A DNA stretch of 64,000 nt. Source: Mucilaginibacter frigoritolerans. GTDB taxonomy: Bacteria > Bacteroidota > Bacteroidia > Sphingobacteriales > Sphingobacteriaceae. Where the stretch lies: the NCBI RefSeq assembly GCF_007830615.1, contig NZ_VLLI01000005.1, positions 248,001 to 312,000 on the forward strand. The letters run 5' to 3'. Shown here one piece after another: positions 2,928 through 4,337 of this stretch (position 1 is the stretch's first letter; every line of letters begins with the position of its first letter). The position numbers and the translations under genes are program-made. The notes below the pieces were generated by a model, which worked only from the letters and a program-made list of their open reading frames with translations, was not told the origin of the DNA and ran no database searches.

Positions 2928-3326
2928 TCACAAGCCTGTCAAACTAAATCTTTTATCGCCTGCTGATCTTTTGTTATTTATTTTTCTGATTATGCCAATT
3001 AACATGGCTTTTACTTCATCTAATAGTTGAGTTGTTTTAAGTTGTTCGTCGCTGTTAAAATAAGCTAAGTCACTACTTAATAAACAACAAAACTCTAATT
3101 CGTAAACAGCGCCTAATGCTGCTTCTAAATAAAGTGCAAAATCTACTTCCCTGAATTTGCCGCATCCTTTAACAATATTGGATGAAATGGCGAACGCTGC
3201 TTTTTTGGTTTGACTTAATAAATCTTGGTGTTCACTTAATGGAAATTTTGGAAGAAGATTTGAGTAGACGAACAAATTCAGTTCGTGCGATTTTTTCCAT
3301 ACTTCTAATTTTTTAAAATCTCTCAT
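2928..3326 (-). CDS. Four-helix bundle protein (S23 / 23S rRNA intervening-sequence family)
   Basis: A 132-residue all-helical protein of the family first noted in ORFs inside 23S rRNA intervening sequences and related to the Avd proteins of diversity-generating retroelements. The signature is visible: FKKLEVWKKSHEL at the N-terminus, then SQTKKAAFAISSNIVKG, then FALYLEAALGAVYELE. Biochemical function is unknown for this family. The gene is inserted between the GNAT gene and argG of the arg operon, and its stop overlaps the alternative GTG start of argG. It is probably co-transcribed with arginine genes but has no obvious role in the pathway. No reverse transcriptase, variable repeat or rRNA is nearby, and I see no flanking direct repeats. 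Confidence 0.85.
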   Translation of the reverse strand: MRDFKKLEVWKKSHELNLFVYSNLLPKFPLSEHQDLLSQTKKAAFAISSNIVKGCGKFREVDFALYLEAALGAVYELEFCCLLSSDLAYFNSDEQLKTTQLLDEVKAMLIGIIRKINNKRSAGDKRFSLTGL

Positions 3327-3380: not shown

Positions 3381-4025
3381 TCAACTTTCCGAACCTATAC
3401 GTTTCTTAATGGCATTTTCAATACGCTCCAGCAGGGTAGCTTTATGCGTAATTTTTTTCATTTTGTCTTCGTATTCTTTTTGTTTTTCGGCAGGATCAAA
3501 CAGCATGGCTGTACACATACAGTTTTTGCGGTTTTTGCTCATCAGGATGTCGTAATTAACGCAGCTTTTGCATCCGGCCCAAAAATCTTCATCCTGCGTA
3601 AGCTCTGAATAGGTTACCGGCTCGTAACCCAAATCAGAATTTATTTTCATTACGGCTAAGCCGGTAGTAAGGCCAAATATCTTAGCCTCCGGGAACTTTG
3701 TACGTGAAAGTTCAAATATTCGTTCCTTAATGGCTTTTGCTAACCCGGCTTTTCTGAAGATAGGGTTTACAATTAAACCCGAGTTGGCTACGAAATCGCC
3801 GTGGCTCCAGGTTTCAATATAGCAGAAACCTGCCCAGGTGCCATCTTTATGTAAAGCAATAACGGCTTTACCTTCTAGCATTTTATTAGCAACATATTCA
3901 GATGAACGCTGCGCTATACCTGTGCCGCGTGCTTTAGCCGATTCGGCCATTTCTTCGCATATATGAGGTGCAAAATCAACATGCTGTGCTGATGCTACCT
4001 GAATATCAAAATCTTGTATGGTCAT
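3381..4025 (-). CDS. GNAT acyltransferase, candidate N-acylglutamate synthase
   Basis: A 214-residue Gcn5-related acyltransferase. The acyl-CoA pyrophosphate loop is RKAGLAKAIKE near residues 91-101, after the strand NSGLIVNPIF. The C-terminal part carries four cysteines as CxxC (152, 155) and CxC (169, 171), unusual for GNATs and suggestive of a metal site. It is the first full-length gene of the arg operon, in the position where a glutamate N-acyltransferase would be expected. I recall genetic work linking the equivalent Bacteroides gene to N-acylglutamate synthesis, but cannot verify that here. Function as the first arginine step is therefore inference from position; the GNAT fold is seen directly. 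Confidence 0.75.
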   Translation of the reverse strand: MTIQDFDIQVASAQHVDFAPHICEEMAESAKARGTGIAQRSSEYVANKMLEGKAVIALHKDGTWAGFCYIETWSHGDFVANSGLIVNPIFRKAGLAKAIKERIFELSRTKFPEAKIFGLTTGLAVMKINSDLGYEPVTYSELTQDEDFWAGCKSCVNYDILMSKNRKNCMCTAMLFDPAEKQKEYEDKMKKITHKATLLERIENAIKKRIGSES

Positions 4026-4107
4026 TGAAATAGAAAAATTACCGTTAAATTATTTGCCTTTTACAGCGTTAAATAATTAGATGATCTTTTAGTTGTGAAG
4101 TTTAACG

Positions 4108-4152
4108 AAAAAACTCCGGGAGGGTTTGTAATCAGAGGAGTAAATCAAACCC
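4108..4152 (-). terminator. Putative arg operon attenuator hairpins
   Basis: Read on the minus strand, GGGTTTG (4152-4146) can pair with CAAACCC (4128-4122), 7 bp. The alternative ACTCC (4141-4137) can pair with GGAGT (4117-4113), which runs directly into six T (4113-4108). The second left arm lies inside the loop of the first hairpin, so the two structures exclude each other. The leader peptide stop codon overlaps the first arm. The terminator stem is only 5 bp with a 19-nt loop, so strength is doubtful. Confidence 0.45.
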
Positions 4153-4270
4153 GTGGCATATAGGGCCTTCGTCGTGACGGAGAAAATACAAAAACGGTTG
4201 AAATCAAAGCAGCGGCAACAGGAGCAAATATTGCTCTTATTGAGGGCTTGTTTAAGCTTTGTTGTTTCAT
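4145..4270 (-). CDS. Putative arginine-rich leader peptide of the arg operon
   Basis: A 41-codon ATG-to-TGA frame starting at 4270 (MKQQSLNKPS) and ending SPSRRRPYMPRV. It has three consecutive arginine codons (CGA CGA AGG, 4166-4174) and another arginine (CGG) two codons before the stop. It lies about 120 bp upstream of the first arg operon gene on the same strand and is followed by competing hairpins and a run of T. This matches the architecture of ribosome-mediated attenuation, where stalling at starved codons controls read-through. The middle is hydrophobic, so a small membrane peptide is an alternative. Coding is inferred from position and composition, not homology. Confidence 0.6.
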   Translation of the reverse strand: MKQQSLNKPSIRAIFAPVAAALISTVFVFSPSRRRPYMPRV

Positions 4271-4304
4271 TTTTTAGCGTGTTTTGTTCTTTTTTTAATT
4301 TTGG

Positions 4305-4337
4305 TGCAAATTATTGCATTAATTTTTACTTATGCAA
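4305..4337. promoter_or_regulatory. Candidate ArgR (ARG-box-like) tandem dyads
   Basis: TGCAA-ATTA-TTGCA (4305-4318) has the 5-4-5 geometry of an ARG box. It overlaps a longer dyad with arms TTGCAT (4314-4319) and ATGCAA (4332-4337). The pair sits 35-67 bp upstream of the leader peptide start, where an operator would be expected. No ArgR gene is in the window, so the assignment is inference. Confidence 0.35.

Follow-up and report, generated by a model that had tools for sequence, protein, structure and literature searches.

How arginine synthesis might be controlled in a bacterium whose genome yields no ArgR gene is the question raised by a 64,000-nucleotide stretch of Mucilaginibacter frigoritolerans DNA (contig NZ_VLLI01000005.1, positions 248,001 to 312,000), referred to here as the window and numbered from its first nucleotide. 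Near the start of the window, a short open reading frame (ORF) carrying a cluster of end-product codons, those of arginine, lies directly upstream of an arginine biosynthetic operon. This ORF quite probably encodes an arginine-responsive leader peptide, a ribosome-mediated attenuator of the GNAT-arg operon in Bacteroidota without ArgR. What the sequences show is a conserved ORF, a frozen CGA-CGA codon pair, constraint on the tail of the peptide, a covarying hairpin inside the ORF (H0) and the lack of a conserved U-run terminator, together with a stop-codon hairpin and an alternative pairing in relatives. From these features we infer the arginine response, the stalling site, the direction of control and the output.

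The operon and its leader ORF

The leader ORF comprises 41 codons (4270-4145, minus strand) and encodes MKQQSLNKPSIRAIFAPVAAALISTVFVFSPSRRRPYMPRV followed by a stop codon, with the tail PSRRRPYMPRV-stop. Its three consecutive arginine codons, CGA CGA AGG, are at 4174-4166 (minus), and a Pro-Arg codon pair at 4156-4151 (minus) precedes the last codon and the stop. A preliminary description of this DNA had pointed out the frame and its arginine triplet, and both are found at the place it gave. The suggestion that the leader is a repeated element was rejected, as the genome contains one match and a second at E=0.12 is noise.

Profile matches identify the genes downstream of the leader as those of arginine synthesis. 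The first gene of the operon encodes a GNAT acetyltransferase (3381-4025, minus) with a match to the GNAT PA4794 in the PDB (E=3.9e-6) and a weak match to PF13508 (E=0.009) that falls below the cut-off; no Pfam or NCBIfam model is matched above its cut-off. When searched with the single protein, 39 of 42 genomes contain the gene, at 54-91% identity. Its place in the operon suggests that it may substitute for N-acetylglutamate (or N-succinylglutamate) synthase. Further downstream are argG (1714-2907, minus; PF00764, TIGR00032), whose start was set at the ATG at 2907 with an alternative GTG start further upstream, argC (711-1703, minus; TIGR01850) and argD (1-612, minus; PF00202), which is truncated by the window edge. 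Beyond the window, the next gene on the contig is argF' (PF02729 and PF00185); for argD and argF', the best NCBIfam scores are below the cut-offs of those models. The gene order GNAT-argG-argC-argD of the preliminary description is correct as to the genes present, but it passes over an ORF of 132 amino acids between GNAT and argG (2928-3326, minus), which matches a four-helix bundle family (PF05635, E=2.5e-22; TIGR02436). A member of the 23S rRNA intervening sequence family is embedded here in an arginine operon.

Promoter and absence of ArgR

Upstream of the leader, a TTG at 4337-4335 and a TAATTTG at 4313-4307 (minus) fit the Bacteroidota promoter consensus (-33 TTG, -7 TAnnTTTG). These elements are kept in the alignment of 47 sequences from the genus, with exceptions such as L012, and would place the transcription start near 4300. 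The promoter also contains a conserved palindrome, TTGCAT..ATGCAA (4337-4314, minus). An ArgR operator was considered for this palindrome and dropped because no ArgR domain gene was found in the genome; it is possibly an operator for some other regulator.

Profiles of both ArgR domains (PF01316 and PF02863) gave no match in the 5.66 Mb genome carrying the window, in which control profiles did match. PF01316 was likewise found in none of 58 related genomes (17 of the genus, 25 of the family and 16 of the class). In a sample of the phylum it occurs in 55 of 148 genomes, 54 of them outside the class, and the sole case within the class (G344) matches only weakly, right at the cut-off. Turning to the reverse comparison, the GNAT gene was found in none of 30 ArgR-bearing genomes, a search without its own positive control; with this reservation, ArgR and an arginine operon headed by GNAT seem to exclude each other (0/58 and 0/30).

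Conservation of the leader

The leader ORF is real and conserved. A search with the 41-residue query at E<=0.01 succeeds in 34 of the 36 other genus genomes, the two exceptions being G012 with no match and G005 with only a match at E=0.96 that has an internal stop. At the same threshold, none of 23 genomes from other families is matched. A leader profile at E<=1e-8 finds 55 of 251 family genomes, consisting of 52 from the genus and three from one sister genus, while in a phylum sample of 296 its matches are four from the genus, counting that of the window, plus 13 weak ones that reach 2.3e-4 at best. By sequence, then, the leader looks bound to its genus; by position it does not. With the GNAT gene as an anchor, short leaders appear in the same place in other genera. 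They are mostly 33-45 codons long, have unrelated N-termini and end in arginine-bearing tails such as RFRRPILPRA, RHRRPFMPRV, TSRQNFTPRI and LIRPFPRR.

One alternative is that the ORF encodes a functional, non-regulatory small protein of 41 amino acids, as its full-length conservation within the genus would allow. The N-termini, however, cannot be aligned between genera while the position ahead of GNAT and the stop-proximal arginine codons persist, and part of the N-terminal conservation lies within the covarying hairpin H0 discussed below. A small protein of this kind is therefore highly improbable.

A strict filter was used to count such leaders; it accepts ORFs of 12-70 codons whose last 12 hold three or more arginines, a pair among them. 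Among the best 80 loci listed, it finds an arginine-ended leader before the same GNAT gene in 48, compared with none of 80 on the reverse strand and 118 of 4,000 dinucleotide shuffles; some of the 48 are probably chance matches, for example L190. The 32 misses consist of 19 Pedobacter-type leaders with separated arginines (two; three in L148), five leaders of Flavobacterium/Myroides type with two or three arginines, three that end in RR with only two arginines (L170, L174, L176), one unconvincing ORF (L152) and four loci without a candidate (L153, L171, L178, L187). In other families, reading by eye recovers arginine-bearing ORFs at L097, L098, L099, L104, L106, L107, L108 and L109 and an uncertain one at L101, with none at L094 and L102 and no clear one at L103 and L105. 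Locus L110 precedes a second GNAT match of its genome (G079).

The sets used throughout are defined as follows. The genus set contains 47 distinct sequences; L001, a second copy of the window, was dropped, as were the duplicates or near-duplicates L016, L043, L045, L047, L049, L051, L053 and L055. Elsewhere, the pairs L083/L133, L095/L157, L089/L131, L160/L161 and L179/L183 are identical or almost so, and L092, where the automatic caller picked the wrong ORF, was left out of the leader set. The Sphingobacterium-type group (27 loci) includes nine Mucilaginibacter loci in the folding-z, stop-hairpin and terminator tests, and these were removed, leaving 18, for the alternative-pairing and spacer-composition tests; the Myroides group (five) includes one Mucilaginibacter locus in the same tests, and the Chitinophagaceae group (18) includes L131, an Anseongella.

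Arginine codons and their tRNA

At positions -9 and -8 from the end of the leader, arginine is encoded by CGA in all 47 genus sequences. The third arginine of the cluster (-7) uses four different codons, and the arginine beside the end (-2) is present in 47/47 with five codons, preceded by a proline (-3) in 46/47 with four codons. CGA is the rarest arginine codon in the long ORFs of the window (24 of 578), and its share of arginine codons in other ORFs is 3.8% for the genus loci (duplicates included), 4.6% for the window and 6.4% for the Sphingobacterium type. None of the Arg-Arg pairs in those other ORFs is CGA-CGA (45 pairs in the genus loci, 27 in the window and 21 in the Sphingobacterium type). 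The leaders of Sphingobacterium type have CGA-CGA in 15 of 15 members of one set and 13 of 14 of a second, in which L088 has CGA-CGG. Chitinophagaceae leaders mostly have CGA-CGT before the stop. Leaders of Pedobacter type count against the preferred reading, as they mostly contain two separated arginines, the first of the tail being CGG.

The tRNA-Arg anticodons found in the genome are ACG, CCG, TCT and CCT. A TCG anticodon was not found, and ARAGORN returned no gene for two of the 49 tRNA matches. Since no TCG is among the tRNA-Arg found, CGA should be read by ACG via a weak inosine-A wobble, the weakest reading by an isoacceptor that serves CGU and CGC as well.

RNA structures in the leader region

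The RNA from the leader start into the spacer (4270-4095) folds better than expected, with 2 of 200 dinucleotide shuffles doing as well (z -2.84). No Rfam family reaches its gathering score in the leader region or in eight related loci. Within the ORF, codons 4-22 form H0 (4205-4261, core 4243-4215, minus), a hairpin missed by the first reading of this DNA. Its covariation score is 0.192 compared with 0.140 +/- 0.008 in shuffled alignments (0/500 as high), and the alignment cells changed on both sides number 43 against 16.9 (0/500). Two of the five measures are weaker, namely double-changed pairs and pair types, for which 23 and 122 of 500 shuffles, respectively, are as high. The support is concentrated in the core, the outer helix contributing one double-changed pair, and one slid version of H0 has more double-changed pairs (13 versus 11). 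RNAalifold applied to the full 47-row alignment retains only eight pairs: four belong to the H0 core, and the other four fall in the promoter, which acts as DNA. Covariation in H0 can explain part of the peptide conservation in codons 4-22.

The stop codon of the leader lies in a second hairpin, H1 (4122-4152, minus), in which GGGTTTG at 4152-4146 pairs with CAAACCC at 4128-4122. Its arms were assessed by comparing each sequence's own pairing with swapped pairings. The own pairing is favoured in the Sphingobacterium-type group (-10.3 versus -8.5 kcal/mol, p<0.0005) and in Pedobacter (p=0.0005), with no signal in Chitinophagaceae (p=0.67) or in the five loci of the Myroides group (p=1.0). The preliminary description had made this structure the product of stalling; it holds up in two of the five groups and is only marginal in the window's own genus (p=0.07). 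In the folding model, H1 is blocked by a ribosome at the stop codon.

Two further hairpins lie in the spacer. H2 (4097-4117, minus) pairs GGAGTTT with AAACTTC and often reads GAAGTTT..AAACTTC in relatives; over 50 nucleotides, the folding z of its region has a mean of -1.34 across the 47 sequences. At L004 and L005, and less clearly at L044, a hairpin of GACGC..GCGT type stands in place of H2 as if it were a dispersed repeat. H3 (approximately 4047-4079, minus) is a predicted hairpin about 21 nucleotides before the GNAT start. It was considered as a conserved terminator and rejected, since on all five covariation measures of the A2 alignment 390 to 500 of 500 shuffles are at least as high.

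In Sphingobacterium, Parapedobacter and others, the last codons of the leader (the stop segment) can also pair with the loop of H2. The own pairing is stronger than the swapped one in 18 Sphingobacterium-type loci (-9.0 versus -7.4, p<0.0002), in a second set of 14 loci (p=0.0026) and in Pedobacter (p=0.005). The swap test fails in Chitinophagaceae (p=0.84) and in the genus (p=0.71), which speaks against the preferred reading; for the genus, this long-range pairing was set aside for want of a signal in a test that has little power there, because the sequence is near-invariant. The controls of both pairing tests are not flat (for H1, p=0.001 pooled and 0.07 to 0.77 within groups, Myroides left out; for the alternative pairing, an RR-codon control of p=0.006 pooled and 0.011 and 0.013 in two groups, and another of 0.026 pooled), so part of either signal may be relatedness.

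Folding with a ribosome masking the RNA was modelled in 17 relatives hand-picked for the alternative pairing, 16 of them distinct. Without a ribosome, the mean numbers of base pairs in H1, the alternative pairing and H2 are 7.7, 0.3 and 10.1 in these hand-picked relatives. They change little with the first arginine codon in the A site (5.8, 0.4 and 9.9), shift to 1.5, 2.4 and 7.5 with the second and become 0, 0 and 10.4 with the ribosome at the stop. Three relatives switch nearly fully (L082, L129, L130), five partially (L079, L083, L128, L133, L136) and the others hardly at all (L084, L086, L090, L096, L127, L132, L137, L145, L167). When the genus sequences are folded in this way, a ribosome at the arginine codons or at the stop toggles H1 and the alternative stays at 0.2. 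H2 and H3 do not move with ribosome position in the genus models, a point against the preferred reading, as is the small number of pairs when the spacer is folded by consensus (Pedobacter 6, Chitinophagaceae 3, Sphingobacterium type 0).

Search for a terminator

The preliminary description proposed a classical attenuator, in which stalling at the arginine codons favours GGGTTTG/CAAACCC over an intrinsic terminator near 4108. The elements it listed are indeed in the sequence: ACTCC at 4141-4137 can pair with GGAGT at 4117-4113, followed by six T at 4113-4108 (the whole 4108-4141, minus). With their arms arranged as a-b-a'-b', the two stems exclude each other as nested helices. The putative terminator itself is less convincing, having an energy of -3.7 kcal/mol that 5 of 20 shuffles equal or better, which is not clearly above chance. 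Moreover, L003 has lost the ACTCC arm despite an identical peptide.

Scanning for U-run terminators between the leader stop and the GNAT start gives -1.67 versus -1.45 kcal/mol for shuffled sequences in the genus (47 sequences), which is the level of the shuffles, and 1 of 47 loci scores at or below -6; in Pedobacter the count is 0/19. The Sphingobacterium-type group scores -3.35 versus -1.78 when shuffled, six of its 27 loci reaching -6 or lower, and U-run hairpins do occur in some relatives (L123 at -7.3 and L132 at -6.5 kcal/mol). As a general switch, the ACTCC/GGAGT terminator was rejected because it is not conserved, and the classical attenuator is improbable. In the alignment with relatives that had been proposed as a check, the arginine-ended frame before the arg operon is the part of the earlier claim that stands; the terminator arms fall away and GGGTTTG/CAAACCC is marginal within the genus.

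The histidine operon of the same genus offers a control. The hisG gene was found in 29 of 30 genus genomes searched, and at all 29 loci a short ORF with four to seven histidines in 12 codons lies upstream. In the window's genome, the leader upstream of hisG (L199, on contig C9 of G000) reads MKAYTLHHSHLNHHHHVVIR. A hairpin at the leader end is seen in most of 12 his leaders folded. The U-run scan found no terminator at the his leaders (-0.54 versus -1.24 kcal/mol shuffled), its two scores at or below -6 being one stretch that reads as hisG coding DNA. Because the same scan found none at the his leader either, it may be insensitive for this phylum, or the leaders here may act otherwise.

Factor-dependent termination of the Rho type could leave a different mark in the spacer. 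C exceeds G in the spacers of 47/47 genus sequences, 19/19 Pedobacter, 29/29 his-leader and 16/18 Chitinophagaceae loci, and in only 9/18 Sphingobacterium-type and 2/5 Myroides-group loci. As controls, intergenic DNA upstream of the leader has C over G in 17 of 46 cases and other upstream regions in 19 of 33 (the leader region counted twice). The excess gives a weak hint of Rho-type termination, weak because the sequences are related, the Sphingobacterium type reaches 9/18 and a C/G of 1.5 is attained in 11 of the 33 control regions.

A further alternative keeps the same arginine sensor and places its output in GNAT translation or mRNA decay, as in speF or rbfL. The failure to find a conserved terminator would fit such an output, as would the hairpins that folding places close to the start of GNAT in both the genus and Pedobacter, and the precedent of speF, where a hairpin lies downstream of the leader stop in the portion of the report consulted (PMC6386406). 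Against it, H3 has no covariation support and is unchanged between the modelled ribosome states, and 78-143 nucleotides separate the leader stop from the gene in the genus and in the Pedobacter and Sphingobacterium types, a distance over which a ribosome on the leader would hardly act by simple occlusion. An output through translation or decay is thus possible, though on the unlikely side.

Constraint on the peptide tail

The tail of the genus leaders follows the pattern PSRRRx[FY][IM]PRV-stop, in which Pro -11, Ser -10 and Pro -3 persist through changes of codon. When only the non-arginine residues of the tail are compared pairwise, dN/dS comes to 0.24 for the genus and 0.08 for Pedobacter. 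The last 11 codons of Sphingobacterium-type leaders give 0.21, and the last 13 of Chitinophagaceae leaders, whose tails differ (...VRR-stop), give 0.43. Elsewhere in the genus leader, codons 23-30 give 0.74 and the H0 stretch 0.36; in the his leaders, the flanks of the histidine run give 0.59 and the histidine core 0.13. All values are pairwise averages with no tree behind them; they draw on the 42 genus leaders out of 47 whose length is exactly 41 codons, and on 18 of 19 leaders from Pedobacter, 15 of 18 from Chitinophagaceae and 23 of 29 his leaders.

Because its dN/dS is low next to the his-leader flanks, the arginine tail appears to be under more amino-acid constraint than mere codon counting would call for. 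This is a pointer and not a proof, because no tree underlies the values and the H0 stretch is also low. Codon counting does not account for the constraint on non-arginine residues, which counts against the preferred reading in its simplest form and brings in a nascent-chain sensor, in which high free arginine would make the tail, lying in the exit tunnel, slow down or halt the ribosome at the stop, in the manner of TnaC with tryptophan. The low values in three groups and the residues kept through changing codons agree with such a sensor. Arrest at the stop would also cover the stop segment, just as the OFF state needs, and the sensor may act together with codon-based stalling. On the other side are the frozen CGA-CGA pair, which favours codon or tRNA sensing, the divergent Chitinophagaceae tails at 0.43 and the treeless averages, in which the H0 stretch and the His core are low as well. 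As an account of the leader, nascent-chain sensing is conceivable and is held only tentatively.

Proposed mechanism and its significance

In the preferred reading, that of a leader peptide acting through ribosome position, ribosomes would translate the leader just behind RNA polymerase. When arginyl-tRNA is short, they would stall on CGA-CGA, which should be readable only by tRNA-Arg(ACG), and the stalled ribosome would leave the stop-codon segment free so that H1 could form. In relatives of Sphingobacterium type, the free stop segment may instead pair with the H2 loop and could melt H2. When arginine is plentiful, a ribosome at the stop would cover the segment, and H2 with the spacer would constitute the OFF form. 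For the OFF step, factor-dependent (Rho-type) early termination seems more likely than an intrinsic terminator.

An extension of this mechanism would give the leader two inputs, with CGA-CGA sensing the charging of tRNA-Arg(ACG) and the tail sensing free arginine in the exit tunnel and holding the ribosome at the stop. Such a leader is a speculative and rather doubtful proposal. If true, it would be a stand-in for ArgR in a large part of the Bacteroidota and, operating without an intrinsic terminator, would be to bacterial biosynthesis what the arginine attenuator peptide is to fungi. The attenuator reading itself, if true, would make one deep leader family a source of natural variants for distinguishing reading by codon, by nascent chain or by both. 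It would also bear on whether the leaders of this phylum, the his leader included, act without U-run terminators.

Comparison with known systems

Ribosome-mediated attenuators of the trp/his type have a leader ORF rich in the amino acid that the operon produces. The arginine leader shares this end-product richness and, in some Sphingobacterium-type relatives, the logic of protector, alternative and downstream hairpins. It differs in having no conserved U-run terminator, as does the his leader of the genus by the same scan, and in a tail constrained at the amino-acid level. On present sequence comparisons, the leader is best filed as working like a ribosome-mediated attenuator, short of proven membership in the trp/his class, because the intrinsic terminator of that class was looked for and not found. 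Arrest peptides offer a second comparison. TnaC arrests the ribosome at its stop codon in response to tryptophan, and in TnaC, the SpeFL arrest peptide and the fungal arginine attenuator peptide the nascent chain is conserved at its C-terminus beside the stop, a likeness that for the arginine leader is known from sequence alone.

Within the partial texts covered by a literature search, no account was found of the control of arginine synthesis in ArgR-less Bacteroidota or of an arginine leader in the phylum. The consulted part of one flavobacterial transcriptome study does report clues for leader-peptide attenuation before amino acid operons, which it leaves unnamed (PMC9723704). Control by leaders with arginine codons has precedents in speF of Salmonella (PMC6386406) and rbfL of S. 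aureus (PMC13009471), both compared here on the sections consulted. Like the present leader, rbfL encodes a peptide with rare arginine codons, and it senses arginine limitation, as is proposed here; it differs in being eight codons long, in using AGA/AGG, in occluding the next ribosome binding site and in that arginine shortage lowers expression (PMC13009471).

The nearest described system is speF. Its leader, orf34/SpeFL, is likewise short, with consecutive arginine codons and one arginine beside the stop, and a hairpin just past the stop is proposed to form on pausing at arginine and to be blocked by a ribosome at the stop (PMC6386406). The speF leader governs ornithine decarboxylase and its peptide belongs to DUF2618 (PMC6386406), whereas the leader described here precedes arginine synthesis and has no Pfam match. 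In those same sections, rare and frequent arginine codons are equivalent in speF and the arginine beside the stop is dispensable (PMC6386406); in the Mucilaginibacter leader, CGA-CGA is frozen and the arginine beside the stop is invariant across the genus.
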